Shown: one piece after another, positions 7,816 to 50,153 of the stretch
Layout of the letters: each line of letters starts with the position of its first letter
How positions within the stretch are numbered: the stretch's first letter is position 1
DNA from: Thermoplasmata archaeon
GTDB taxonomy: Archaea > Thermoplasmatota > Thermoplasmata > Methanomassiliicoccales > Methanomethylophilaceae
Assembly (NCBI GenBank): GCA_015063285.1
Contig: SUST01000001.1
Location: 186,001-250,000, forward strand
Direction of reading: 5' to 3'
Length of the DNA: 64,000 nucleotides
Made by a program: the position numbers and the translations under genes
The notes under the pieces: generated by a model
What the model was told of the DNA's origin: nothing
The model's input: the letters and a program-made list of their open reading frames with translations, nothing else
Databases searched by the model: none

Positions 7816-8721
7816 TCAGCTGTTCCCGTCTTCAATTTTCCCAATCCACCCTATCAACTCCTCCAGGACCTCACGGCTCTCCGGCAGATCGGGCTTCAGG
7901 GAAGGGAACGCGTGGTCCAGCTCTTTGTTGCCCCTGTAGAAAAGATACTTGCATGGATGTTCCGCCTTGCGCAGGGCCGCCTCATAGCACTCGGTGTAAT
8001 TCTTGAGGAAATCCTTGTCGCTGCTGACCAGGAACATCGGGGGCAGGTGACCCATCACCTCGAGGCACTCCGGATCCATGAGCTGCTTGAAGGACGGATC
8101 CTTCCTCTTCTCCCCATAGAGGGTCTTGGCATAGGCAAAGCTGAGCATGTCCCTCTTGAAGGTGTAGAACATTCCGCTGAAACAGGCAAGGGAAGATACG
8201 TGAAGGGATGGTTCCTTCAATCCCAGGGCCTCCCTCAGAACCGGGGAACCCAATGAGGCAACGGCATACACGGCCAAGAAGCAACCGGCGCTCTCCGATA
8301 CCACCGCCACGCGATTGGGGTCGCCGCCGTACTCCTCGAGATGTTCGGAAACGAAGGTGAATGCCGCAAAGACATCTCCTATCTCCGAGAATGCATCCGC
8401 CTCCGATAACAACCTGTACTCCGGATTGAAGACAAGGAATCCTTTCGAGACAAGGTTCTCGCTGATTGTCCGTGTTAGCTTCCGTGTACCGACTACGAGC
8501 CCGCCTCCGTGTATCACGACGACGACGGGAAGGGGGACAGGGCCGCGGTCCTTGGGACGGAAGATGTCCACTCCCAACGGAGCGCCGCCTGCGCCCTGAA
8601 ATGTTTCATCCAAAAACTCTTCAACGCCATCAGGGGTCCGGTGGCCCGCCTCGGATCTGGCTTCCCAGTCCCGGCATTTGCCATCCATTCCCCTGGTGAC
8701 GAGTTTTAATAACAGACCCAT
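7816..8721 (-). CDS. Alpha/beta-hydrolase, HSL-type esterase
   Basis: A 301-residue hydrolase. The HGGG oxyanion motif (VIHGGGLVVG) appears near residue 70. The nucleophile elbow VSESAG, near residue 142, stands in for the usual GDSAG. A late Asp (SSDKDF) and His (ELDHAFP) complete a credible Ser-Asp-His triad. This is the hormone-sensitive lipase group, which cleaves short acyl esters; the substrate is unknown. No signal peptide is visible, so it is likely cytoplasmic. It lies just downstream of the phasin-like gene on the same strand, 25 bases apart, and could be cotranscribed with the ligase cluster, which would fit a role in releasing stored acyl compounds. That link is inference. Confidence 0.8.
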   Translation of the reverse strand: MGLLLKLVTRGMDGKCRDWEARSEAGHRTPDGVEEFLDETFQGAGGAPLGVDIFRPKDRGPVPLPVVVVIHGGGLVVGTRKLTRTISENLVSKGFLVFNPEYRLLSEADAFSEIGDVFAAFTFVSEHLEEYGGDPNRVAVVSESAGCFLAVYAVASLGSPVLREALGLKEPSLHVSSLACFSGMFYTFKRDMLSFAYAKTLYGEKRKDPSFKQLMDPECLEVMGHLPPMFLVSSDKDFLKNYTECYEAALRKAEHPCKYLFYRGNKELDHAFPSLKPDLPESREVLEELIGWIGKIEDGNS

Positions 8722-8746
8722 GGGTCAGTTTCTGAAATCCGTTTCT

Positions 8747-9355
8747 TCAAGCCTGCTCGACGGGCTCTTTCTTCTCGACGGGCTTCTTGGGCTCTGCTTT
8801 CTTGGCGGGTGCCTTCTTGGGCTCTGCCTTCTTGGCATCTGCTTTCTTGGCAGGTGCCTTCTTTGCCTCAGCCTGCTCAGCTACCTTCTCGGCTGCCTTC
8901 TTTGCCTCGGTCTTCTTCTCCTCGATCTTGGCCTTGGTGTTCTTTACACCCTCGGAGATCATGTCCTTGTCGAACTTCTGCCTCTGAGCGACGAAGTCGA
9001 AGAATGCGTCAGCCTGCTCGGTGGCCTGCTTGTTGGCCATCTCCTGGAACTTCTTGTTCTTCTTTATGTAGTCCTTGGGGGACACGGGGACGAAGAAGGG
9101 GAACTCGTCGGGCAGGGTGTCTGCGAAGGAATCCTGCATATCCATGCACTGTTTGAAGAATGTGTTCCACTGCTTCTTGGTGGTCTCGATGTAGGTCTTC
9201 TGCATCTCGTCGATCTGCTTGCAGAATGTATCGAGGTTCTCCTCGAACTTCTCCCACTGCTCATCGAAGTCGATCTTCTGCTCGGGCTTCTTCAGGGGGA
9301 ATACCGGGGGGAAAGGCATCGGGGGTGTGTTCTTCTCTTTCTTTTTGTCGCTCAT
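8747..9355 (-). CDS. Phasin-like coiled-coil protein with Lys/Ala/Pro histone-H1-like tail
   Basis: A 202-residue protein. Residues 1-30 hold a short Pro/Met patch (PPMPFPPVFP). About residues 30-150 are amphipathic helix with regular aromatic and charged spacing, as in phasins. The last 60 residues repeat AKKA, APAKK and EPKK. The central part is closely similar to residues 775-875 of the adjacent ligase: both have QWN, a conserved DSFAD/ESFAD, SLPDE or TLPDE, PVSPK and DMISEGVKNTK. A phasin domain plus Ala-Lys-Pro tail is the plan of the Pseudomonas granule protein PhaF, whose tail binds DNA. I cannot show homology to PhaF; the similarity is in architecture. The gene ends 41 bases downstream of the ligase on the same strand, so the two are likely cotranscribed. 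Confidence 0.7.
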   Translation of the reverse strand: MSDKKKEKNTPPMPFPPVFPLKKPEQKIDFDEQWEKFEENLDTFCKQIDEMQKTYIETTKKQWNTFFKQCMDMQDSFADTLPDEFPFFVPVSPKDYIKKNKKFQEMANKQATEQADAFFDFVAQRQKFDKDMISEGVKNTKAKIEEKKTEAKKAAEKVAEQAEAKKAPAKKADAKKAEPKKAPAKKAEPKKPVEKKEPVEQA

Positions 9356-9396
9356 CTAGTCACTTCCTTTTTCTTTTCGTTAAAGCGTTTTGAAAC

Positions 9397-12111
9397 TCAT
9401 TGAGCATCAGTCTTTGACGGGGCGGCCTTCTTGCTGCTGCCCGCCTTACCGGATTTCTTGCTGCCGGCTTTGGCCTTGGTGCTCTTTGCGTTAGCGTTCT
9501 CTTTCTTCTTCTCCTCGATCTTGGTCTTGGTGTTCTTGACACCCTCGGAGATCATGTCCTCGACGTACTCCTGTCTCTTCGATGCGAATTCGAAGAATGA
9601 GTCCGCCTGCTCCATGGCCTGCCTGTTGGCCTTCTCGCGGAATTCCTTGTCCTTCTTCAGATACTCCTTCGGGGATACCGGTGTGAAGAACGGCATCTCG
9701 TCGGGCAGGGAATCTGCGAAGGATTCCTGCATCTCCATGCACTGGTCGAAGTATGCATTCCACTGTCCCTTGGACGCTTCCAGGGACGCTTTGTACATTT
9801 CCTTCATCTGTTTCCAGAAAGCATTCAGATTGGAATTGAAAGTCTCCCAGCCCTCTTTGGACTTGTCATTGTCGTCGCTCCCGGGCCATCCCCAGGGGGT
9901 TCCGAACGGCATGAATGGCATCGGAGGCATGGGCATTATCGTGGGGAACATCGGCATCATACCCTGGAAGAAAGGTATGAGGCCCTTCTCAGGATCCAGT
10001 TTGAAGTTCTTTATGTCCATTCCCTTGAACATGTTCATCGGATACTCATCCATGGCCATCTTGATCAGCCTTGGTGTGAGCTTGTACATGCTCGCGGGTA
10101 TATTGTTGATGTCGAAGTCCATGAGCTTCAGGAACATCTCCCTGAGTCCCGGGATCTTGAAGACCCTTCCGTACTGGCCCTCGAGGATCTCCGGAATGGC
10201 CGCGAACAGCTCGGAGACGATGTTATAGGGATCGTTCTCTAGCTCATCTGGCACTCCTGCTCCCTGGGTGGCGTTCTCGCCCTCCGAAGCGGGTACGAGC
10301 AGGATGTCCGTAACCTGACCGTTAACCTTGACGGGCTTCACGTGGAAGCGCCTTCCTTTGACGTTCCCGCTCTTCAGCTTCTTTGTATCCACCTTGCCCC
10401 CTGCGTTCAGAGGGATGGAATCCATCAGAACGCACTGGCTGGGAAGATTAGTATCCTTGATCTTCCCATCCTTGAGGAAGACCTGAATAAGGGCCTTGCG
10501 CAGGGTGATGAGTTCATCATTCTTCGAGCCCTTGGTCTCCACGTAGAGGATGGGGATGTTATCGTGCAAGACCTTGTAAAACTCCGGAACAAGACCGCAG
10601 GCAACTATTCCGGGCTGTCCGGTGACTGCGGTCTCGATGAGACCTGCGTTGAAGCGGACTCCCGCATTGTTGACGAAGAATTGATTCGAACGTCCTATGC
10701 ACGTAAGGCTTCCGTCCTTGTTGACGCGGACGAGGTCGTTGGAATTGAAGTAATCCTCCCCATCTACTTTCTCCAGTTCGAAGCACACCAGGTCGTCTAT
10801 CTTTCCGTTGCTCATCGAAGGGGATGAAAGGTACAGGATTCCGGTACGGGGTCCGTCGGAGAGATCGTAGAACTTCTTCTCCTCCTCCGAATAGATCTTC
10901 ACCTTCACTCCGGGGAACGGATAGCCTATGGCGTCATCATTCCTGTCGGCTCCCGCGATGAGGCAGGCTCCTCCCAATTCGGACAGGCCGTAACCGTTGA
11001 TAATGCGTGCCGAGGAACCGCAGGATTTCAGATAATCGTTGAATGTCTTCTTGAATTCGGGAGAGACGTAGCTTCCTCCCATGAACACTATCTTCACCTT
11101 GGACAGGTCCATGTCGGGCATGGACTTACCCCAGGAATCCAGGATCGTTCTGCTGGTGAAGAATACGTTGACGCCGTACTCCTCTATGGCCTCTGCATAA
11201 CGGGGGTTGGTGGCGCCGTAAGGCAAACACACGACCTCACCGCCGAGACCGAGCGTAGTGTGGAGCATGTCTATAGTAGCATATGCCCATGACATGTTCA
11301 GCATCAGGCAACTGACGATATGGTCGGGTGCATCCTTGAAGTCCTCGTATGTTTCCTTGGCCTCCATTGCACCGACGACGAACGAGTTCACCGCCCTGTC
11401 GGACATGGGGACCGGTTTATGGATCCCGCTGACCGTTCCTGTCGTATGAAGGATGACTGAAGCATCGGTAGATCCATCTTTGCCATAAGAGATCGGAGAA
11501 GCCTCGTACTCCTGAAGAAGGTCGTCCATCACAAGGCCGCCCTCGAATTCCCTGAACATGGATGTGTTCAGCTTGCGTGCTATCTCCAACGGAGGGATGG
11601 CGTATTCCCCTCCCATGGGGCTTCCCAATACGATGATGTTGCGCAGCCCCAGCTCATCCTTGTCGCGGAGAAGCTTCTTCATGACGTTGGGGAAGGCGAA
11701 CAGCTCGGATACCACAAGGTCTGTGACCTTCTCCTTCTTGATCATGTTGCGTACGTTCTCATCGTCGTACATGTCGAAATGGAACAGGAGCGATACGGAA
11801 GCACCGGTCATGTTCAGACCGTACAGCGCGAAGATCGTCTCCGTCAACATCGTTCCGACCAACATCACACGGGAATGGTTTTTATCGGTGATGTCCAAAG
11901 CGGAGAAGGCCTCCGCGTAGTGCTCCCAATTGCGGAACATCTGACGGTACGTATACTTCCTATAACCGTCCCTGATGGCCACGGTGTCAAGACGTTCATC
12001 GCTGTAAGAATTCAATTCCTTGATGAAGGACCAGCATTTCTGATCTGCTATCTTTCCGTTTTCGATGCGGGCTTTCACCTTCTCGAGTCTTTTCTTTTCG
12101 GCTGCATTCAT
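9397..12111 (-). CDS. Adenylate-forming acyl-CoA ligase-like protein fused to phasin-like domain and basic tail
   Basis: A 904-residue multidomain protein. Residues 1-570 are an ANL-superfamily ligase. Motif A3 appears as LHTTGTVSG, A5 as NGYGLSE, A7/A8 as SNDLVRV and GRSNQFFVNNAG, and the A10 catalytic Lys as NAGGKVDTKK. It probably activates a carboxylate with ATP; the substrate is unknown. Residues 570-700 are an unassigned helical region. Around 725-750 comes a Met/Pro-rich stretch (MPMPPMPFMPFG), then the phasin-like helical domain shared with the downstream gene, then a tail rich in Lys, Ala and Ser. Typical acyl-CoA synthetases are 500-650 residues, so the C-terminal third is extra. 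It is divergent from a paralogue at 12507, with a long shared promoter region. Confidence 0.75.
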   Translation of the reverse strand: MNAAEKKRLEKVKARIENGKIADQKCWSFIKELNSYSDERLDTVAIRDGYRKYTYRQMFRNWEHYAEAFSALDITDKNHSRVMLVGTMLTETIFALYGLNMTGASVSLLFHFDMYDDENVRNMIKKEKVTDLVVSELFAFPNVMKKLLRDKDELGLRNIIVLGSPMGGEYAIPPLEIARKLNTSMFREFEGGLVMDDLLQEYEASPISYGKDGSTDASVILHTTGTVSGIHKPVPMSDRAVNSFVVGAMEAKETYEDFKDAPDHIVSCLMLNMSWAYATIDMLHTTLGLGGEVVCLPYGATNPRYAEAIEEYGVNVFFTSRTILDSWGKSMPDMDLSKVKIVFMGGSYVSPEFKKTFNDYLKSCGSSARIINGYGLSELGGACLIAGADRNDDAIGYPFPGVKVKIYSEEEKKFYDLSDGPRTGILYLSSPSMSNGKIDDLVCFELEKVDGEDYFNSNDLVRVNKDGSLTCIGRSNQFFVNNAGVRFNAGLIETAVTGQPGIVACGLVPEFYKVLHDNIPILYVETKGSKNDELITLRKALIQVFLKDGKIKDTNLPSQCVLMDSIPLNAGGKVDTKKLKSGNVKGRRFHVKPVKVNGQVTDILLVPASEGENATQGAGVPDELENDPYNIVSELFAAIPEILEGQYGRVFKIPGLREMFLKLMDFDINNIPASMYKLTPRLIKMAMDEYPMNMFKGMDIKNFKLDPEKGLIPFFQGMMPMFPTIMPMPPMPFMPFGTPWGWPGSDDNDKSKEGWETFNSNLNAFWKQMKEMYKASLEASKGQWNAYFDQCMEMQESFADSLPDEMPFFTPVSPKEYLKKDKEFREKANRQAMEQADSFFEFASKRQEYVEDMISEGVKNTKTKIEEKKKENANAKSTKAKAGSKKSGKAGSSKKAAPSKTDAQ

Positions 12112-12506
12112 TCTATGAACCTTTGATTTCTTGAATTGGGATGAATTTGGTTTAGCACGCTAAGTGAGCGCTTTGGAGCCCCTTACGAAGTAAGGACGTA
12201 TACGCCAATTTTAAATTATAAAGATTTTCGACCATTGTCGGATAAAGTAACATCCGAGCAATGTAGGAACCGATCAGTTTTCAATGGTCCTGAGAAATGA
12301 ATTTGCAGACAGCCTCATCCGAGAAACTCATCACCCATCTCGAAGACCGTCCTCGGTTCTCCTGCCATGTCGGATCCGTTCCTCCGACTGCAGACTTTTC
12401 CCTTCTAGAACTATCGGCTCGATGTTTGAAAAAATTGACCTGTTGTCGGGAAACTATAAACGAGTTAGACCGATACACCACAGAGACATTATTGCGAGGG
12501 AATCTT
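12112..12506. promoter_or_regulatory. Divergent promoter region of the two ligase genes
   Basis: A 395-base gap between divergent paralogues. A TATA-like TTTTAAATTATAAAG lies at about 12208-12222, and CTTAC-GAA-GTAAG at 12183-12195 is a small inverted repeat. The stretch from 12297 is open in the frame of the right-hand ligase, but its translation does not match the paralogue and looks like noncoding sequence. I see no other gene here. Confidence 0.4.
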
Positions 12507-14915
12507 TTGACCACAAAAAAGAGCAATATAACGAAGCGCATCGAAAGCGGAGAGATCGCGGATCAGCCATGCTGGTCCTTCATCAAGGAAATGAACTCTG
12601 TCTCCAAAGAACGCCTCGACAACGTGGCGCTGACGGACGGCTACAGACAGTATACGTACAGGCAGATGTTCCGCGCTTGGGAGAGGTATGCAGAGGCATT
12701 CTCGGGACTCGGCCTTACCGGCGAGAACCGTTCCCGTGTAGGGATCATCAGCGTGCCTCTTCCTGAGACCATCTTCGCATTGTACGGTCTGAACATGACC
12801 GGGGCTAGCGTCTCCCTGATCTACCATCTCGACCTATACGATGAGAAGCAGATATACAGTATGATCGAGAGGGAGAAGATAACCGATCTGATAATCTCTG
12901 AGGTCTTTGCATTCCCTAATGTGATGAAACGTCTCCTCGAGGACAAGGAGAGACTGGGCATCGAAAACATCATCCTATTGCCCAGCCCAATGGGAGGAGA
13001 ATACGCCATCCCTGCGTTCGAAATGGTCAGGAAACTGAACAAGACCCTGTGCGGCGAACTTTCGGACATCATCTTGATGGAAGACCTTCTGGAGAAGTAC
13101 GAGGCATACCCCATATCAAACTCCAAGAAGGCCGGCCCGATCATCCTCCACACCACCGGAACCGTCAGCGGTATGCACAAACCAGTGCCCCTTTCCAACA
13201 AGGCCATAAACACCGTGGTGTTAAGCATAAGGCAGGCCAGGTTGGAACACGATGATTTCAAGGTGATCCCGGAGCATGTCGTCACCACCGTCCCCTTCTA
13301 CCTGAGCTGGGCGTATTTCATGATCGACTCACTGCACACAGCGCTGAGCTGGGGTGCGGAGATCATATGTCTGCCCATGGCATCTATGAATCCCCATTAC
13401 TCGGAAGCGATCGAGCGTTACAAGGTCAATGTGCTGTTCACCGGGATGATCCTGTTCGACACATGGAACAAGTTCAGGCCGAAGATGGACCTCTCCGAAC
13501 TGAAACTGGTGATCATGGGCGGCACATACATCTCACCCGAGTACAAGAAGGAGCTCAACGCCTATCTGAGATCATGCGGTTCCGAAGCGCGCTTCATCAA
13601 CGGTTACGGACTCTCGGAACTCGGAGGAGCGTGCATCGTCTGCCCCTCGTCAAGGGAGGACGATGCCATCGGATATCTGCTGCCTGGATTCAAGGCCAAG
13701 ATCTACGTCGAGGATGAGAAGCGCTACTACGATGTATCCGACGGCCCGCGCACAGGAGTCCTCTTGCTCAGTTCACCGACAATGAGCGACGGCAAACTGG
13801 ACAACACCATGTTCTTCGACCTTGAGAAAGTGGACGGGGAGATGTACTTCAACTCGCACGATCTGGTAAAAGTCGCCGAGGACGGATGCATGACCTGCAT
13901 CGGCAGATCCAACAACTACTTCGTCAACAACGCCGGGATACGCTTCGATGCCGGATTGGTGGAGACGGCTGTCACGAAGCAGCCCGGGATAAGGTTCTGC
14001 GCTCTCGCACCGGAATTCCACAAGGTCCTGCACGATAACATCCCCATCCTCTACGTGGAGATGAAGGATCAAGACGGAGATAGACTCACCACCCTGCGCG
14101 ACGCGCTGGTCCAGGTATTCATAAAGGACGAGCTTATTTCGAACACCAACCTCCCCAGCCAAGTCGTGTTCTTGGATAAAATGCCCCTGAATTCCAACGG
14201 AAAGGTTGATGCCAAGATGCTCAAATCGGGATTGGTTACGGGAGTCCGCTACTCCATCAAACCCGCCTATGTCGATGACCTGTTGGTGGACATAGTTCTG
14301 GTCCCGGCGGCGGAAGGCGAATTCGCCACGGTGGGAGCCGGAGTACCTCAGGAACTCGAGGAGGATTCCTACAAGATCCTGGCGGAATTCTTCGCTGCGA
14401 TACCGGAAATGAAGGAAGGAGGAATGCTGAAGGCGCTGAACATCCCCGGACTCAGAGAGCTCATCATGAAGCTGACCGATTTCGACGTCGATAACATCCC
14501 GCAGAGCCTATGGAATCTGGCACCGAAGCTTTTCAAAATGGTCTACATGGATCATCTGATGCCATTGATGAAAGAGATCAACCAATTAGAGGATGCGATT
14601 TCCAGTTCCGGTATGATGAGCCCGCCTATGATGCCCCCCATGCCTTTCATGCCGCTCCCCGGATTCGGTCCGAAGATGCCTGATTTCAACGCTGACATGG
14701 AGAACCTCTGGAATCCGATCATCAAGATGCAGAAACCTCCCATGATGCCGGGCTTCCCGCCATTCCCATTCTTCCCCATGCCGATGGGGCCGACAGTTAC
14801 GAAGGAGGATGACGATGCAGAAAAGAAAGCGAAGAAATCTTCCGCCAAGAAAGCTGCCAAACCCAAACCGAAGGCCACCGTCGATGGCAAAACTAAGAAA
14901 GCCAAGAAAGCGTGA
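12507..14915 (+). CDS. Adenylate-forming acyl-CoA ligase-like protein with Met/Pro-rich and basic tail
   Basis: A paralogue of the ligase at 9397, about 802 residues from the proposed TTG at 12507. The TTG is preceded by GAGGG, and similarity to the paralogue begins right after it (ITKRIESGEIADQPCWSFIKE). An ATG at 12297 would add about 70 unrelated residues. ANL motifs are present: LHTTGTVSG (A3), NGYGLSE (A5), SHDLVKV, GRSNNYFVNNAG, and the A10 Lys in NSNGKVDAKM. It has the same unassigned helical region, two Met/Pro-rich stretches (PPMMPPMPFMP and PPFPFFPMPMG), and a terminal Lys/Ala tail, but it lacks the phasin-like domain. The shared tails suggest both enzymes go to the same cellular structure. 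Substrate unknown. Confidence 0.75.
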   Translation: MTTKKSNITKRIESGEIADQPCWSFIKEMNSVSKERLDNVALTDGYRQYTYRQMFRAWERYAEAFSGLGLTGENRSRVGIISVPLPETIFALYGLNMTGASVSLIYHLDLYDEKQIYSMIEREKITDLIISEVFAFPNVMKRLLEDKERLGIENIILLPSPMGGEYAIPAFEMVRKLNKTLCGELSDIILMEDLLEKYEAYPISNSKKAGPIILHTTGTVSGMHKPVPLSNKAINTVVLSIRQARLEHDDFKVIPEHVVTTVPFYLSWAYFMIDSLHTALSWGAEIICLPMASMNPHYSEAIERYKVNVLFTGMILFDTWNKFRPKMDLSELKLVIMGGTYISPEYKKELNAYLRSCGSEARFINGYGLSELGGACIVCPSSREDDAIGYLLPGFKAKIYVEDEKRYYDVSDGPRTGVLLLSSPTMSDGKLDNTMFFDLEKVDGEMYFNSHDLVKVAEDGCMTCIGRSNNYFVNNAGIRFDAGLVETAVTKQPGIRFCALAPEFHKVLHDNIPILYVEMKDQDGDRLTTLRDALVQVFIKDELISNTNLPSQVVFLDKMPLNSNGKVDAKMLKSGLVTGVRYSIKPAYVDDLLVDIVLVPAAEGEFATVGAGVPQELEEDSYKILAEFFAAIPEMKEGGMLKALNIPGLRELIMKLTDFDVDNIPQSLWNLAPKLFKMVYMDHLMPLMKEINQLEDAISSSGMMSPPMMPPMPFMPLPGFGPKMPDFNADMENLWNPIIKMQKPPMMPGFPPFPFFPMPMGPTVTKEDDDAEKKAKKSSAKKAAKPKPKATVDGKTKKAKKA

Positions 14916-14952
14916 AAACGATTCTGCAAGGATCGAACAGGATTCCCTTAAC

Positions 14953-14969
14953 GGGGGGTCAAACCCCCC
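14953..14969 (+). terminator. Terminator after the ligase
   Basis: GGGGGG, loop TCAAA, CCCCCC, 38 bases after the ligase stop. No T-run follows closely, so termination may be partial. The rest of 14970-15110 holds nothing I can identify. Confidence 0.55.
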
Positions 14970-15110
14970 ATGAAACATCCTTCTCTACCAATCAGTTAGC
15001 GACCGTCTCCGTACGTGCCTCTCCGCCTATAACGACGATCGGCAATTCTATATCGGCTCTAGATTCGGTTCTATCATCGGGGACTAAGGAGATTGGTTCC
15101 AACGGTTGTC

Positions 15111-15740
15111 TCATCCTAGAAGATTCTCGCCCATCGCGAAGGCCGTCCTCAGTTCTCCGGGGAACACCTTCTCCCTCCTCTCGATCCTCTGTTCGGCATC
15201 GAAGAAGGTCCAGTCGAACTTGCTGTAATCCTTCACCTGAAGGGTCTCTCCCACGACAAGAACCTTCGTAGGACCTATGAATGAATCCAATGTCGACCTG
15301 TACTTCTCCAGCATCTCATCGTAGAAGCCTGAGGGAGCATTGGACGTCATGATCAGGAGCACGGGGATCCTGCGTGTGTTGCAGCAAGGGTGCTCCTTGT
15401 TGTAAGTGAGGTAGGGGAAGACCAGCCTCTCGTAGAATGTCTTGAACTGTGCGCACAGGTCTCCGAAGTAGTTGGGCGCACCTATGATGAGACCGTCAGC
15501 TTCCCTTATCGAATCCAAAACAGGCTTGAGTCCATCCTTAACGACGCATTCGCCCTCATGTGCCTTCCTCTTGCATCCGAAGCACGAGATGCATCCGGTA
15601 TAGCTGTCCAGTTTGTAGAGGTCGAACTTATCGACCGCCGCACCTTTGGATTCGGCACCCTTGGCAGCCTCGTTGATGAGCATATCCGTATTCCAACCCG
15701 AACGCGGGCTCCCGTTGACAGCGACTACCTTTCTGGACAT
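15111..15740 (-). CDS. NADPH-dependent FMN reductase / iron-sulfur flavoprotein family
   Basis: A 209-residue flavodoxin-fold protein. The FMN phosphate loop NGSPRSGWNTD is near residues 9-19, and GAPNYFGD near residue 91 binds the isoalloxazine ring. A cysteine cluster CISCFGCKRKAHEGEC near residues 50-65 resembles the compact [4Fe-4S] motif of methanogen iron-sulfur flavoproteins (Isf). Such proteins carry electrons or reduce oxygen species in the cytoplasm. It has a single gene neighbourhood with no obvious partner. A related but shorter paralogue lies at 21843. Confidence 0.8.
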   Translation of the reverse strand: MSRKVVAVNGSPRSGWNTDMLINEAAKGAESKGAAVDKFDLYKLDSYTGCISCFGCKRKAHEGECVVKDGLKPVLDSIREADGLIIGAPNYFGDLCAQFKTFYERLVFPYLTYNKEHPCCNTRRIPVLLIMTSNAPSGFYDEMLEKYRSTLDSFIGPTKVLVVGETLQVKDYSKFDWTFFDAEQRIERREKVFPGELRTAFAMGENLLG

Positions 15741-15854
15741 GCATGATTGTAAAGAATGTCGGAATAAATCCGTTTCTTAAGTTCCGCATATGCAGAACCC
15801 TTTCACATAGGTCGTGACATCCAATATAAGTATGGAAGCAATGATACCAATCCC

Positions 15855-16022
15855 ATGTCTAACAAGTTCTACAGGATGCTGTCGGCCCTCATAGCAATCA
15901 TATTCGGCATAGTATGGATATACTTGGCCAACGACTCGGGCGCCCCGTGGTTCTTCTCACTCTTCGGAGTGGTGTTCATAGGCATAGCAGCCTTCATCTT
16001 CGTGAAGGCACTGCTGTCGTAA
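15855..16022 (+). CDS. Small membrane protein, 55 residues
   Basis: An uninterrupted frame of 55 residues from ATG at 15855 to TAA. Two hydrophobic helices (MLSALIAIIFGIVWIYLA and SLFGVVFIGIAAFIFVKAL) are joined by a short polar turn, NDSGAPW. No family is recognised beyond 'two-helix membrane protein'. It lies divergent from the flavoprotein gene at 15740, with its own start region, and is followed by a clear hairpin terminator. The strong hydrophobic periodicity makes chance unlikely. Confidence 0.65.
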   Translation: MSNKFYRMLSALIAIIFGIVWIYLANDSGAPWFFSLFGVVFIGIAAFIFVKALLS

Positions 16023-16063
16023 TCTCCATTGGAAATCGACGATCATCGATTCCTTGATGAAAA

Positions 16064-16082
16064 TCAGGGCCTGAGGCCCTGA
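16064..16082. terminator. Bidirectional terminator
   Basis: TCAGGGCC, loop TGA, GGCCCTGA: a perfect 8-bp stem between two convergent genes (stops at 16022 and 16099). Confidence 0.65.
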
Positions 16083-16098
16083 GATGAATGGTATCGGA

Positions 16099-17034
16099 TC
16101 ACTTCTCGAGAAGACTGGACCCGATCAGCTTCCAGGAAGAATAACTTGATTGGACAAGACGGGTCTTGAACTGCATCTCCTGCAGGGCGACGGCATCTCC
16201 CAAATGGGCAATCGTGAAAGTCCGCTCCTCCTTGTTCAGCCCCTCCGTTACCAGCGTGTGCACATCGTAATATCCGTTCCCCATGGGAAGGTCGAACCTC
16301 TCCCTGCTGTCGGACTCCTCGATGATTGTCTCGTACTGCTCTTTCAATTCCTGCAGCTTGTATGCATAGGAAACATAGGACAGGAAACTGTCCCTGTCGT
16401 ACTCATCACCGTTCTCCATAGTGAGCATGTCGCCGTCGACGGACGCCACGGTCAGATCGACCGTTTCCTCCATCAGGACGAGCATCTTCAGAGCGACGGC
16501 TGTATTCCCTTGTTCGTCTATCTTCCCGACGGTCATCAGCCTCTCGGTGGTGTTGGCATCTCCCCCTGTCTGGACGTCCACCCTCTTGAGTTCCGTACCC
16601 TCGGTTATATCCGAAGGGGAGACCGGCTTGGTGAGATCCACCGTCGTCGAGACCAATGACCTCACATAATGCAGGGAATAGTAGTCCTCCTCCTCGTAGA
16701 CGGGGACGTCCGACCCTTTGGCAAGATACACTAGGGTATCGTCGGAATGGAAGGTGCGGCATTCGAGGTCCGATCCCTTGTAGGGGTAGAGCGCATCCTC
16801 CCCCTGCGCCATCTGCGACACATCGTAATGCAGGAAGCGGTTGTAGAACTGATTCACATTCATCTCCATATCGTATGCGATGTGCTGCTCGGCATAGAAC
16901 TCATATTCGATATAGTCCCCTACGACCACATCCTCCCTCACGCTGTAACCCTCTTCCGACGTCAGGAATGAGAACAGCATCACCAGGACGACCGCAGCCG
17001 CGGCAGCCCCGAAGATGAACGCGTTCTTGCTCAT
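16099..17034 (-). CDS. Signal-anchored extracytoplasmic protein of unknown function
   Basis: About 311 residues from ATG at 17034. An N-terminal hydrophobic anchor (NAFIFGAAAAAVVLVMLFSF) is followed by an acidic, beta-rich domain with many Tyr and Glu residues. No catalytic motif is recognised. A TTG at 17073 would extend the protein by 13 residues, but CATTATAAAG lies in that extension about 25 bases before 17034 and looks like the TATA box of a leaderless transcript, so I prefer 17034. Similar single-anchor proteins of unknown role are common in wall-less Thermoplasmata; here also see 33248 and 52959. Confidence 0.65.
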   Translation of the reverse strand: MSKNAFIFGAAAAAVVLVMLFSFLTSEEGYSVREDVVVGDYIEYEFYAEQHIAYDMEMNVNQFYNRFLHYDVSQMAQGEDALYPYKGSDLECRTFHSDDTLVYLAKGSDVPVYEEEDYYSLHYVRSLVSTTVDLTKPVSPSDITEGTELKRVDVQTGGDANTTERLMTVGKIDEQGNTAVALKMLVLMEETVDLTVASVDGDMLTMENGDEYDRDSFLSYVSYAYKLQELKEQYETIIEESDSRERFDLPMGNGYYDVHTLVTEGLNKEERTFTIAHLGDAVALQEMQFKTRLVQSSYSSWKLIGSSLLEK

Positions 17035-17215
17035 GGCCAGAGTATCGCCTATCGACTTTATAATGATGGTCAAATCGGGTGAACTTGACTCCCGCCGTCA
17101 GGATGATACTGTACTCACAGAGCCTTTTCTTACAAGGGTTCAAAACAACCGAGGCGTCGACCTCCTTTGACCGACCATCAGCCGCTTTATTGATATTATA
17201 TCTATACACAGAATC

Positions 17216-17274
17216 GGGAAAAATGTATTTTTCTACATTTTTCCTCATGTAAAAATGTATTTTATTGCATTTTT
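17216..17274. repeat. AT-rich inverted-repeat cluster (AAAAATG half-sites)
   Basis: GGAAAAATGTA (17217-17227) is repeated in reverse complement, TACATTTTTCC, at 17234-17244. A second pair, AAAAATG (17251-17257) and CATTTTT (17268-17274), follows. Four half-sites within 60 bases, upstream of the anchored-protein gene, suggest an operator. Confidence 0.55.
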
Positions 17275-17483
17275 CCCAAATTCAGAATCGTCGGAATAAT
17301 CACGATCAGTTCAATCATATCACAGAAATAAGATGGCACCAGACTATTGAGAACTGTCAATTTTCGCCCGGATCCGACGGTGTTCATGAGCGTAAACACG
17401 TTCTGTATCATCGCTCTGCCCTGCCCCGGTGCCTGATCCCCGAGACAGCCTAGGACGCAATTCCTGTACATGCCCGTGCTCAT
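17262..17483 (-). CDS. Doubtful small ORF, 73 residues
   Basis: A frame whose ATG overlaps the stop of the upstream ATPase by four bases (ATGA), ending in TAA inside the inverted-repeat cluster. The C-terminal third is hydrophobic (FCDMIELIVIIPTILNLG). I do not recognise it. The ATGA overlap is the only support for translation, and the sequence could equally be noncoding. The rest of 17074-17479 has no other gene candidate. Confidence 0.2.
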   Translation of the reverse strand: MSTGMYRNCVLGCLGDQAPGQGRAMIQNVFTLMNTVGSGRKLTVLNSLVPSYFCDMIELIVIIPTILNLGKMQ

Positions 17484-18700
17484 AAAGGATCCTTAACCCA
17501 CTCGTCGTAATCGACGATCCTTATCCCTTCGGCTTCATCCATCATGGTCTTACCCTTGCATAGCAGGAACTTCGGATAATTGTCGTCTATCGCCCTCAGC
17601 GGCGCCAGCTCTCTCCTGAAGGTATCAGCGGAAAATGCATCGGAGCACACTTGGTAGTAGGCCTTGTACTTAGGCGTCCACACCACGAAATCGACCTCTT
17701 TGCCATTCACATCGTAGGTGGCCACGTCCCCATACTTCTTCTTCAGCTCAATGAACACTATGTTCTCCATGATACCGTCGATATCGTCTGGGCGGACGGG
17801 CACCGTCCTGTTCCTGATTCCGATATCTGTACAGTAGAACTTGTCCGTCGTGCGAAGATATTCCTTGGTCTTCGAATCCATCCTCTTGGAACGGTAGAAC
17901 AACAAGGCGGATTCCAGCATCGATATGTATCCGTCAACGGTCTCCGGATTGGTGGGCGATGAGGTGCTTGTAAGATACCCTGCTGCCGATCTGACCGACA
18001 CCCTGTCTCCGATGCTGCGCATCATGTAACGATTCAGGTTCACGATCTTGGCAGGGTTCCTGATCTCATTGCGCTGTATTACATCCTTGACGAAAACGGT
18101 ATCGAATGTTCCTGAAAGCATCATGTCTATCAGGTCCGTGTCATCCTCGTCCATCAGCGCCACGGCCGGAAGAGAACCTGAATCCTGGAAACGCCTGACC
18201 AGTGCATCCTCATCCGATTGGTCGCCACGGCTCCTCCTGAACTCCACGAACTCCCTGAAGGTCAGAGGATACACCTGTATCTCGATGTATCTTCCTGAGA
18301 GTTTGGTCGCCAGTTGCGATGACAGCATATTCGCGTTGGAACCGGTTATGAAAACATTGGCGCCGGAATCATAGAACGATTCCACAGCACGCTCCCATCC
18401 TTCGATGTCCTGCATCTCATCGAGAAGGATGAATGCCCCCTCACCGACCTGTACCTTCGATTTGACATCGTCAATGAGTCCGCGTAAATCGGGCCTCTCA
18501 TCATCCAACTCCTCATCAAACTTGCGGTAATAGATCCTGTCAGCAGACGTCCCCGATTCCACCAGATCCTTCATCAGAAGCTTCAGGAGTTTGGATTTAC
18601 CTGTACGCCTCATGCCCACTATAACCTTGATAGTCGGCGATTGCACAGACCTCATCAGAAGGGATTGGTATACAGGACGGGGTACCAAGCATTCTTCCAT
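17480..18700 (-). CDS. AAA_14/DUF4143 family ATPase
   Basis: A 406-residue protein of the archaeal-bacterial ATPase family with a C-terminal DUF4143/PD-(D/E)XK-like domain. Walker A is GMRRTGKSKLL near residue 30, Walker B FILLDEMQD near 93, and sensor-like FITGSNANML near 117. The C-terminal part has FIELKKKYG and VDFVVW, which resemble restriction-like nuclease core residues. These proteins are very numerous in Methanomassiliicoccales and gut bacteria and their biological role is unknown; roles in mobile-element biology or defence have been guessed. Two 18-bp operator-like repeats lie directly upstream. A second, distantly related family member occurs at 35068, also behind repeats. Confidence 0.8.
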   Translation of the reverse strand: MEECLVPRPVYQSLLMRSVQSPTIKVIVGMRRTGKSKLLKLLMKDLVESGTSADRIYYRKFDEELDDERPDLRGLIDDVKSKVQVGEGAFILLDEMQDIEGWERAVESFYDSGANVFITGSNANMLSSQLATKLSGRYIEIQVYPLTFREFVEFRRSRGDQSDEDALVRRFQDSGSLPAVALMDEDDTDLIDMMLSGTFDTVFVKDVIQRNEIRNPAKIVNLNRYMMRSIGDRVSVRSAAGYLTSTSSPTNPETVDGYISMLESALLFYRSKRMDSKTKEYLRTTDKFYCTDIGIRNRTVPVRPDDIDGIMENIVFIELKKKYGDVATYDVNGKEVDFVVWTPKYKAYYQVCSDAFSADTFRRELAPLRAIDDNYPKFLLCKGKTMMDEAEGIRIVDYDEWVKDPL

Positions 18701-18703
18701 ATT

Positions 18704-18763
18704 GATATGTTATATAATATCACTATATAAATTGATTTTTGATTTGATATGTTATAGAATATC
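18704..18763. promoter_or_regulatory. Twin 18-bp operators upstream of the ATPase
   Basis: GATATGTTATATAATATC (18704-18721) and GATATGTTATAGAATATC (18746-18763) differ by one base, are each near-palindromic, and start exactly 42 bases apart, close to four helical turns. A TATA-like TATATAAATT lies between them. The first copy abuts the start codon. Confidence 0.7.
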
Positions 18764-18831
18764 AAATTTACTTTTATGAAATTCAGGAAGAGAATCGTGT
18801 TTCCTACATTGTTCCCACGAAGTAACGACAG

Positions 18832-48836: not shown

Positions 48837-50153
48837 ATGTACAGATCGATCACCATGAGAGTGGAACCCAAAGCAGAACAAAGAAAGTTCCTGGATGAAA
48901 GCATCAAAGTACATCACTACGTATACAATGCCTTGATCACAGCTACTAAGTTGTACTTTTCATATCATGGAAACCTGCCTTCCCATAATGAACTTAACAA
49001 AGTATGCACCCAAATCTGGCAAAACAATCATTGGATGCACGGCATCTATCAAAACACTATGAATCAGACAGCCAAACGTGTTCTTGATGCATTTAAGTCA
49101 TGCAATCCAGAGATAAAGCAAATCTCCAGAAAAAGAAAGAGCGGAAATATCGCGGGTGCCCTCGTTCTAAGGTCTCCTAGATACAAGAAACTCAACCGTT
49201 CCAACACTTTCGGATACATTTCCAATAATACTTTCAAAGTGGTCAATTCAATCGATGACAAAGGAAAACATCGCAGATCACTATCCCTCGGAAAAATGAA
49301 AGGGCTCCTCAGATGCTACAACCAATCCACACCCATACCTGGAAAACCAAAGGCAGTAATCATTACCAGAAGAAATCTCGGAACTCATTATGAATACTAC
49401 ACAACCATACAATTCGAATAGGAAAACATAACATGCAGACATTTTGCAGATGATTGTGAATCTGAATTAGAACTCGAAACCATGGTTTTCAACATGTATA
49501 CATTTCCAAAACCTGTAGGAATCGATGTAGGAATCACAAATGTTGCAACCCTTTCAGACGGCACCGTGTACAACAACATACGTGAATACACAATGATGCT
49601 GAACGAGTTCCGCGAAAATCAGATGAAATTGTCCAACACGTTACCAAACACAAAGAATTACAATATGAAGAAAAGTCGTCTGAACCATAAATACAAGAGA
49701 ATAATCAATAAGAGGAAAGACTATCAGGAGAAGACATCTCTTGAGATAGTAAGGAAGCATACCAAAATTGTCATGGAAGACCTTTCAGTAAATAGATTGA
49801 GATCGATCTCCAAATCCCCTTCTATGACCATCTCTTACATTGACAGTTCTCTGGGTAGATTGAGACAAAGAATCTGCTGCAAAGCAATAGAAGCTGGCCG
49901 CCAGATAGTCTTAGTCAATCCGAGAAATACGTCACAAATGTGTTCAAGGTGTGGGGCAATTGTACATAAGGAACTGAGTGCTCGTATGCACAAATGCTCT
50001 CAATGCGGCTTAATAATGGACCGCGATCTGAACGCATCTATCAATATACTCCGCCTTGGGTTGACCGACAACCCCTCTCTCGCGTCAGAAGAGAAAATAG
50101 CCCCGTCATCTTGGCAGGGGCATGAGTATTCCAGTTTACTCATAGCAGTGTAA
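48837..50153 (+). CDS. tnpB: TnpB (IS605/IS1341 type) RNA-guided nuclease with in-frame TAG
   Basis: A 438-residue frame from ATG 48837 to TAA, interrupted only by TAG at 49419-49421 (residue 195). The N-terminal part has the usual OrfB helical lobe (VHHYVYNALITATKLY, HGIYQNTMNQTAKRVLDAF). After the TAG come the RuvC core residues: PVGIDVGITNVATLSDG (Asp), KIVMEDLSVNRL (Glu), then the zinc ribbon CSRCG/CSQCG and DRDLNASINIL (Asp). With TAG read through, it is a complete TnpB. If TAG stops, it gives a 194-residue RuvC-less piece, with a possible separate restart near 49482. No tnpA is present, so it would be non-autonomous. The region is AT-rich compared with its neighbours. Confidence 0.8.
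50101..50143 (+). other. Hairpins at the tnpB 3' end (right end / guide RNA candidate)
   Basis: CCCC (50101-50104) can pair with GGGG (50117-50120), and ATGAGTA (50122-50128) with TACTCAT (50137-50143). TnpB systems make their guide RNA across the gene end and right end of the element, so this is the expected place. The element's exact right end was not found. Confidence 0.35.

Follow-up and report, generated by a model that had tools for sequence, protein, structure and literature searches.

A 64,000-nucleotide stretch of a Methanomassiliicoccales genome (Thermoplasmata archaeon, family Methanomethylophilaceae; GenBank assembly GCA_015063285.1, contig SUST01000001.1, positions 186,001 to 250,000; hereafter the window) contains a cluster of genes for two adenylate-forming (ANL) ligases, a stand-alone protein with a predicted amphipathic two-helix hairpin, and an esterase (Table 1). 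The ligase 1, hairpin and esterase genes form an operon in this order, with spacings of 41 bp and 25 bp. Ligase 1 is composed of an ANL core, a family-specific block (residues ~600-685), a Met/Pro linker, the amphipathic hairpin and a Lys/Ala tail, whereas ligase 2, which is oppositely oriented, lacks the hairpin and retains the Met/Pro linker and tail. The mechanically called open reading frame of ligase 2 covers 12297-14915 on the plus strand (872 residues). However, homology starts only near 12507, at a TTG codon with GAGGGAA upstream; because both the homology and the GAGG motif begin there, this TTG is probably the true start. A first-pass annotation, made from the letters alone, had described the paired ligases, the helical domain and Lys/Ala-rich tail fused to one of them, the Met/Pro-rich linkers and similar tail of the other, the separate protein with the same helical domain and an AAKP-like tail, and the adjoining esterase gene; all of these elements were recovered here, the esterase as a member of the same operon.

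Table 1. Features of the ligase-hairpin-esterase locus, numbered from the first nucleotide of the window
Feature	Coordinates	Strand	Basis
Ligase 1, ANL (AMP-forming) ligase, 904 aa	9397..12111	-	Pfam AMP-binding, motifs, full-length identity to Clostridia
Hairpin ("phasin-like") domain of ligase 1, residues 748-882	9466..9870	-	low-confidence model and identity to stand-alone protein
Met/Pro-rich linker of ligase 1, residues ~715-747	9871..9969	-	sequence; Pro/Met-rich in all aligned ligases
Lys/Ala-rich tail of ligase 1, 36 aa, net +9	9400..9507	-	charge count
Stand-alone hairpin protein, 202 aa, N-terminal MPFPPVFP motif, AAKP-like tail	8747..9355	-	AlphaFold, family alignment
Lys/Ala/Pro tail of stand-alone hairpin protein, 55 aa, net +8	8750..8914	-	charge count
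HSL-type alpha/beta hydrolase (esterase), third gene of the operon	7816..8721	-	Pfam BD-FAE, 75 bits; identity to clostridial esterases
Ligase 2, ANL ligase of archaeal subclade, divergent, no hairpin	12507..14915	+	AMP-binding; core identity to archaeal ligases
Met/Pro-rich linkers of ligase 2	14607..14801	+	sequence
Lys/Ala-rich tail of ligase 2, 37 aa, net +9	14802..14912	+	charge count
Inserted block: operon, ligase 2, FMN reductase, AAA ATPase	7816..18831	.	flank spacing in relatives

Both ligases were found to score far above the Pfam AMP-binding cut-off of 29.9 bits (ligase 1, 123 bits; ligase 2, 110 bits) and to be 61% identical to each other across the core. The P-loop HTTGTVSG-H-K with its Lys, the motifs NGYGLSE and GRSN, and the Lys of PLN..GKVD are invariant among the aligned ligases, as is Lys573, the catalytic residue near the C-terminus. 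The AMP-binding score, the P-loop and the catalytic Lys place these proteins in the ANL superfamily. Their best family matches, PRK07529/NF005714-like acyl-CoA synthetase models, reach ~80-87 bits against a cut-off of 632, and the nearest solved structures, which are weak matches, include a beta-aminoacyl-ACP synthetase and DltA. The esterase contains HGGG and SESAG motifs, the latter with the Ser nucleophile, and its score is above the cut-off for the HSL/BD-FAE (Abhydrolase_3) family.

The hairpin of ligase 1 (~748-882) and residues ~30-166 of the stand-alone protein are the same two-helix domain, with 56% identity. Sixteen copies were observed in the first loci and 20 rows could be aligned, in which L81, P82, P93 and Q126 are invariant, so that chance sharing of the domain can be set aside. 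The AlphaFold model of the stand-alone protein, built on the 20-member alignment, predicts long helices at residues 30-80 and 93-166 (pLDDT 80-92 in most 10-residue blocks of both) and a disordered tail; a low-confidence model of ligase 1 places the corresponding helices at 748-800 and 814-882. Helical periodicity was observed to peak at 97.5 degrees in helix 1 and 98.5 degrees in helix 2, close to the 98.2 degrees of 11-residue repeats and far from the 102.9 degrees of heptad coiled coils. This periodicity beat shuffled sequences (p<0.05) in 14 of 20 members for helix 1 and 18 of 20 for helix 2, tests that are not independent in related members. Ranked by amphipathic strength against 874 ordinary 45-residue windows, helix 1 comes at the 89th percentile and helix 2 at the 97.5th, which is marked but not extreme, and the amphipathic faces are rich in Met, Phe and Trp. 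The hairpin appears to constitute a family with no Pfam or PDB match: a sequence-profile search of the PDB returned only chance-level matches, and Foldseek found nothing in the PDB for the hairpin model, although a two-helix hairpin offers little to match. The position of the domain varies, the ligases at loci L012, L013 and L066 having a separate copy alongside instead of a fused one.

The order ligase, hairpin protein, HSL esterase was found to recur at clostridial loci (L009, L010, L011, L013 and L066, besides the window), and two loci at contig edges show parts of it (L067, hairpin then esterase; L012, ligase then two hairpin genes). Full-length relatives of ligase 1 in metagenome-assembled genomes of Clostridia are 61-65% identical to it, and in six clostridial loci the esterase encoded next to the hairpin protein shares 56-63% identity with that of the window. 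Joint occurrence is patchy: the ligase subfamily and the hairpin are carried by 4 of 147 genomes of the archaeal order, the same four for both and all of one genus, and a sample of the phylum (390 genomes besides the window's own) gave a single marginal match. In the clostridial family the hairpin was found in 9 of 250 genomes, and in a broader sample of the clostridial order only in the query genome. The operon, whose mobility the first-pass annotation had missed, is common to gut Clostridia and not specific to archaea. Titled clostridial records name RUG isolates (rumen) and goat ileum, which suggests that the carriers are all rumen or gut organisms.

Comparison of the cores indicates that two ligases of different history stand side by side in one cell, since ligase 1 is 66-70% identical to clostridial ligases and 60-65% identical to archaeal ones including ligase 2, and the ligase 2 core is 83-86% identical to the ligases of the genomes G079 and G085. 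A ligase tree is split with a support of 100 between six archaeal plus two clostridial sequences (G596, G662) and window ligase 1 plus six clostridial sequences. By this tree, at least two crossings between Archaea and Bacteria, in either direction, are needed under any root. The locus is, by the spacing of its flanks, an insertion: the Lhr helicase and FAH genes are 12.3 kb apart here versus ~10-1170 bp in five relatives (G073, G078, G082, G087 and G081). The block in the window is bounded by Lhr helicase/cyclophilin-like genes and an FAH-family gene; in G081 a cyclophilin-like gene lies between Lhr and FAH. Because the flanking Lhr and FAH genes, on a 279-kb contig, match archaeal relatives at 82-95% identity, a misplaced bacterial contig in the archaeal bin is excluded. 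Among viral contigs no relative was found, and plasmids yielded distant ligases only. This operon, which moves between domains and carries a hairpin family of its own, is a stronger finding than the phasin analogy considered below.

Several other genes were noted in and around these loci. Relatives of the AAA ATPase and, at 70% identity, of the FMN reductase encoded at 15111-18700 of the window, compared with locus L047, accompany a ligase in G085 too, and are perhaps common island cargo. Positions 16099-17073, inside the inserted block, encode a putative secreted or membrane-anchored protein of 324 residues with no Pfam family, and two adjacent reading frames at 48837-50153 look, by their sequence, like a putative split TnpB/OrfB of IS200/IS605 type. 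A type B carboxylesterase was rejected as a fixed archaeal member, being present without the ligase in G082, G084 and G088 and having no close homologue in G000 or G085. Carboxylesterases with an N-terminal membrane-like region lie near clostridial clusters (L009:5817-7814, L013:3454-5427, L065:1-1977); the nucleophile box reads GFDAG in L009, with the Ser lost, and GFSSG in L013. DUF1269 and DUF308 (HdeD-like) membrane proteins also recur by the clostridial operon (L010:12268-12846, L066:4972-5487, L009:12139-13308, L067:2004-2789).

The first-pass annotation had likened the architecture to PhaF, a phasin that tethers polyhydroxyalkanoate (PHA) granules to the nucleoid. As an analogy the likeness is partly supported, by the repeated, predicted amphipathic helices that occur with enzymes and an esterase, by their periodicity of 97.5-98.5 degrees, which recalls phasins and lipid-droplet helices, and by the Lys/Ala tails of the archaeal proteins; as homology it is not supported. 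Phasin_2 was the most frequent Pfam match among the hairpin members (9 of 20), but reversed sequences match it just as well. With tails removed, it was matched by 5 of 10 forward sequences (best E 0.0015) and 5 of 10 reversed ones (best E 0.0039), so these matches are a composition effect, and Pfam gives no ground for phasin homology. The best domain-only phasin score was 19.1 bits against a cut-off of 24.9, with reversed controls reaching 17.8, and no member exceeded the cut-off of a Pfam phasin family (PF05597, PF09361, PF09602, PF09650) in the scans that print cut-offs. Profile comparison by hhalign with seven PhaP proteins gave a probability below 1%. Five of seven genuine PhaP phasins used as a control peak at 97-99 degrees, with the best window freely chosen. 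The hairpin domain may therefore work like a phasin, whereas membership of a phasin family is not supported.

A PHA synthase, which the first-pass annotation had proposed to look for elsewhere in the genome, was likewise not recovered. PhaC_N (PF07167) was absent from all nine carrier genomes, several of which are incomplete, while the Caulobacter control worked. Model TIGR01836 gave weak matches below its cut-off in two Clostridia (L049 and L050), and that in L049 was rejected as PhaC, since the hydrolase concerned is secreted and carries a solute-binding domain as a fusion; no credible PHA synthase was seen in this set. WS/DGAT had no match in the nine genomes, but the control genomes were silent as well; a published survey found none in 427 archaeal proteomes (PMC6355812).

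DNA tethering through the tails, a further proposal of the first-pass annotation, now appears weak. In archaea, the net charge of tails downstream of a hairpin is +0.15 to +0.29 per residue, or about +8 to +9 in total (ligase 2, +0.24 per residue; archaeal G079 ligase B, near zero), whereas a PhaF-type tether tail is highly positive, with about eight AAKP repeats, and PhaF and AlgP carry +35 and +55 as whole proteins (PMC9239181). Bacterial stand-alone hairpin proteins have tails of -0.02 to +0.12 per residue, several bacterial fused ligases have acidic C-terminal ends, and many bacterial members have no tail. To some extent, therefore, the tails vary freely between the domains, but they do not within archaea. 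Since bacterial versions are near-neutral or tail-less, the module does not depend on basic tails, which belong mainly to its archaeal versions. In archaea they may make weak contact with nucleic acids or an acidic surface. Methanomassiliicoccales lack histones of the eukaryotic type, and what packs their DNA is not known (PMC4153887); basic tails may matter in such a lineage, in which tethering to DNA can be proposed. The APAKK motif is too rare to be a genome-wide quirk: each carrier genome has 2-13 sites, some of which are gathered in the present cluster. Similar tails were seen on two other proteins: a 170-residue protein downstream of the esterase at L013:11899-12411, with a hydrophobic N-terminal helix, a KAAAPAK-repeat tail of net +21 over 133 residues and no Pfam match, and a second, solitary hairpin protein at L068:9673-10500 (G147 contig 6), with a 130-residue Lys/Ala/Pro tail and no ligase found alongside.

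What could such a module do? We tentatively read the mobile gut operon as a surface-scaffolded module for acid processing, at somewhat less than even probability. A cytosolic esterase would free a carboxylic acid from an ester, the ANL ligases would adenylate the freed acid and pass it to CoA or another acceptor, and the amphipathic hairpins, fused to the ligase or on a separate partner, would keep the enzymes assembled at a hydrophobic surface such as an inclusion, a lipid body or a membrane. Gene content and order, the common hairpin domain, the ligase motifs, mobility and patchy joint occurrence are observed, and the order of these reactions, the substrate and the surface are what we infer; the economical account is that an ester is cleaved, the acid activated and the enzymes scaffolded by amphipathic helices, either on a hydrophobic body or through self-assembly. 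The scaffolded module is supported by the conserved gene order, the joint occurrence, the hairpin being either fused or separate, its helix structure and periodicity, and the invariant ligase motifs. Three points weigh against it: the two amphipathic helices of a hairpin might just as well serve for oligomerisation as a coiled coil, the carriers searched yielded no synthase for a polymer or a lipid, and an esterase gene lies near the ligase in just one of the four archaeal carriers. A more specific version, in which the hairpin family coats a non-PHA body with acid-activating and ester-cleaving enzymes as an undescribed inclusion system that moves between domains and is common to rumen methanogens and gut Clostridia, with basic tails added in archaea, is doubtful.

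The first of these points leads to an alternative that is possible, though unlikely, in which the hairpins oligomerise as bundles or coiled coils and, with the low-complexity Met/Pro linkers, assemble ligases and hairpin protein as a filament or condensate in which neither lipid nor polymer provides a surface. Coiled coils are likewise consistent with the hendecad periodicity, the ligases and their partner have linkers rich in Met and Pro as well as charged, disordered tails, and PhaF is itself a tetramer (PMC3574117); the Met/Phe/Trp-rich faces and the ester hydrolase partner, however, suggest a hydrophobic substrate phase. Rather improbable is an ordinary acyl-CoA or aryl-CoA synthetase with an esterase that acts on esters from the diet (feruloyl or short-chain ones, in the manner of BD-FAE), hairpin and tails being dispensable extensions. 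The top family matches are indeed generic acyl-CoA synthetases and BD-FAE, and several ligases lack the hairpin, but these usually have a stand-alone copy alongside, and the hairpin is kept across domains with invariant positions. That the stand-alone protein or the Lys-rich tails act as the acyl acceptor of the ligase, in protein acylation or a carrier-like role, would accord with the carrier-loading ligases among the nearest solved relatives and with Lys-rich tails on both ligase and partner; it is quite improbable given that no carrier-protein fold is present and many bacterial members are tail-less. A true phasin system of PHA-type granules tethered to the nucleoid, despite its helix-plus-AAKP-like-tail architecture, PhaP-like amphipathic angle and histone-lacking host, is very improbable in view of the missing PhaC, phasin matches no better than reversed controls, and tails of small charge in archaea and neutral or absent in bacteria.

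If the scaffolded module is real, methanogenic archaea and gut bacteria would exchange a kit that organises acid metabolism on an intracellular surface, and organisms relevant to methane emission would possess an unrecognised storage or scaffolding body. The hairpin would then do the work of phasins by a second, non-homologous route and might be of use as an enzyme-fusion tag.

How does the module compare with known systems? The ligases share fold and motifs with PRK07529/NF005714-like ANL ligases but have diverged into a subfamily marked by an additional conserved block, the Met/Pro linker and the hairpin. The esterase shares the alpha/beta hydrolase, HGGG and Ser nucleophile motifs of HSL/BD-FAE esterases, but has SESAG in place of the usual G-x-S-A-G and is further set apart in that, in Clostridia, its gene invariably shares the operon of the hairpin gene. 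With the histone-H1-like KPAA tails of AlgP (PMC9239181) the archaeal proteins have in common a disordered Lys/Ala/Pro-rich C-terminus on a helical protein, at 31-55 residues and net +8 to +9 versus +55 for AlgP as a whole. The hendecad-like periodicity is shared with perilipins and apolipoproteins, whose 11-residue-repeat helices coat lipid droplets and act there with lipases (PMC5889406); no homology is shown to these, and the present hairpin is prokaryotic and fused to an ANL ligase. Long amphipathic helices of ~97.5-degree periodicity are also found in PhaF/PhaI (PF05597) and PhaP (PF09361), and PhaF has a Lys/Ala/Pro tail like the archaeal hairpin proteins, whereas the domain described here is a two-helix hairpin fused to an enzyme, with no detectable homology to these phasins, no PHA synthase found, and tails that are weakly charged and not conserved. 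PHA granules carry, besides phasins, the acyl-CoA synthetase ACS1 and the depolymerase PhaZ (PMC5658603), and the combination of esterase, ligase and hairpins in the operon may reproduce this division of labour among PhaZ, ACS1 and phasins with unrelated parts and without a polymerase in the operon. By this analogy, the module would have a somewhat carbonosome-like surface function while standing outside the carbonosome family.

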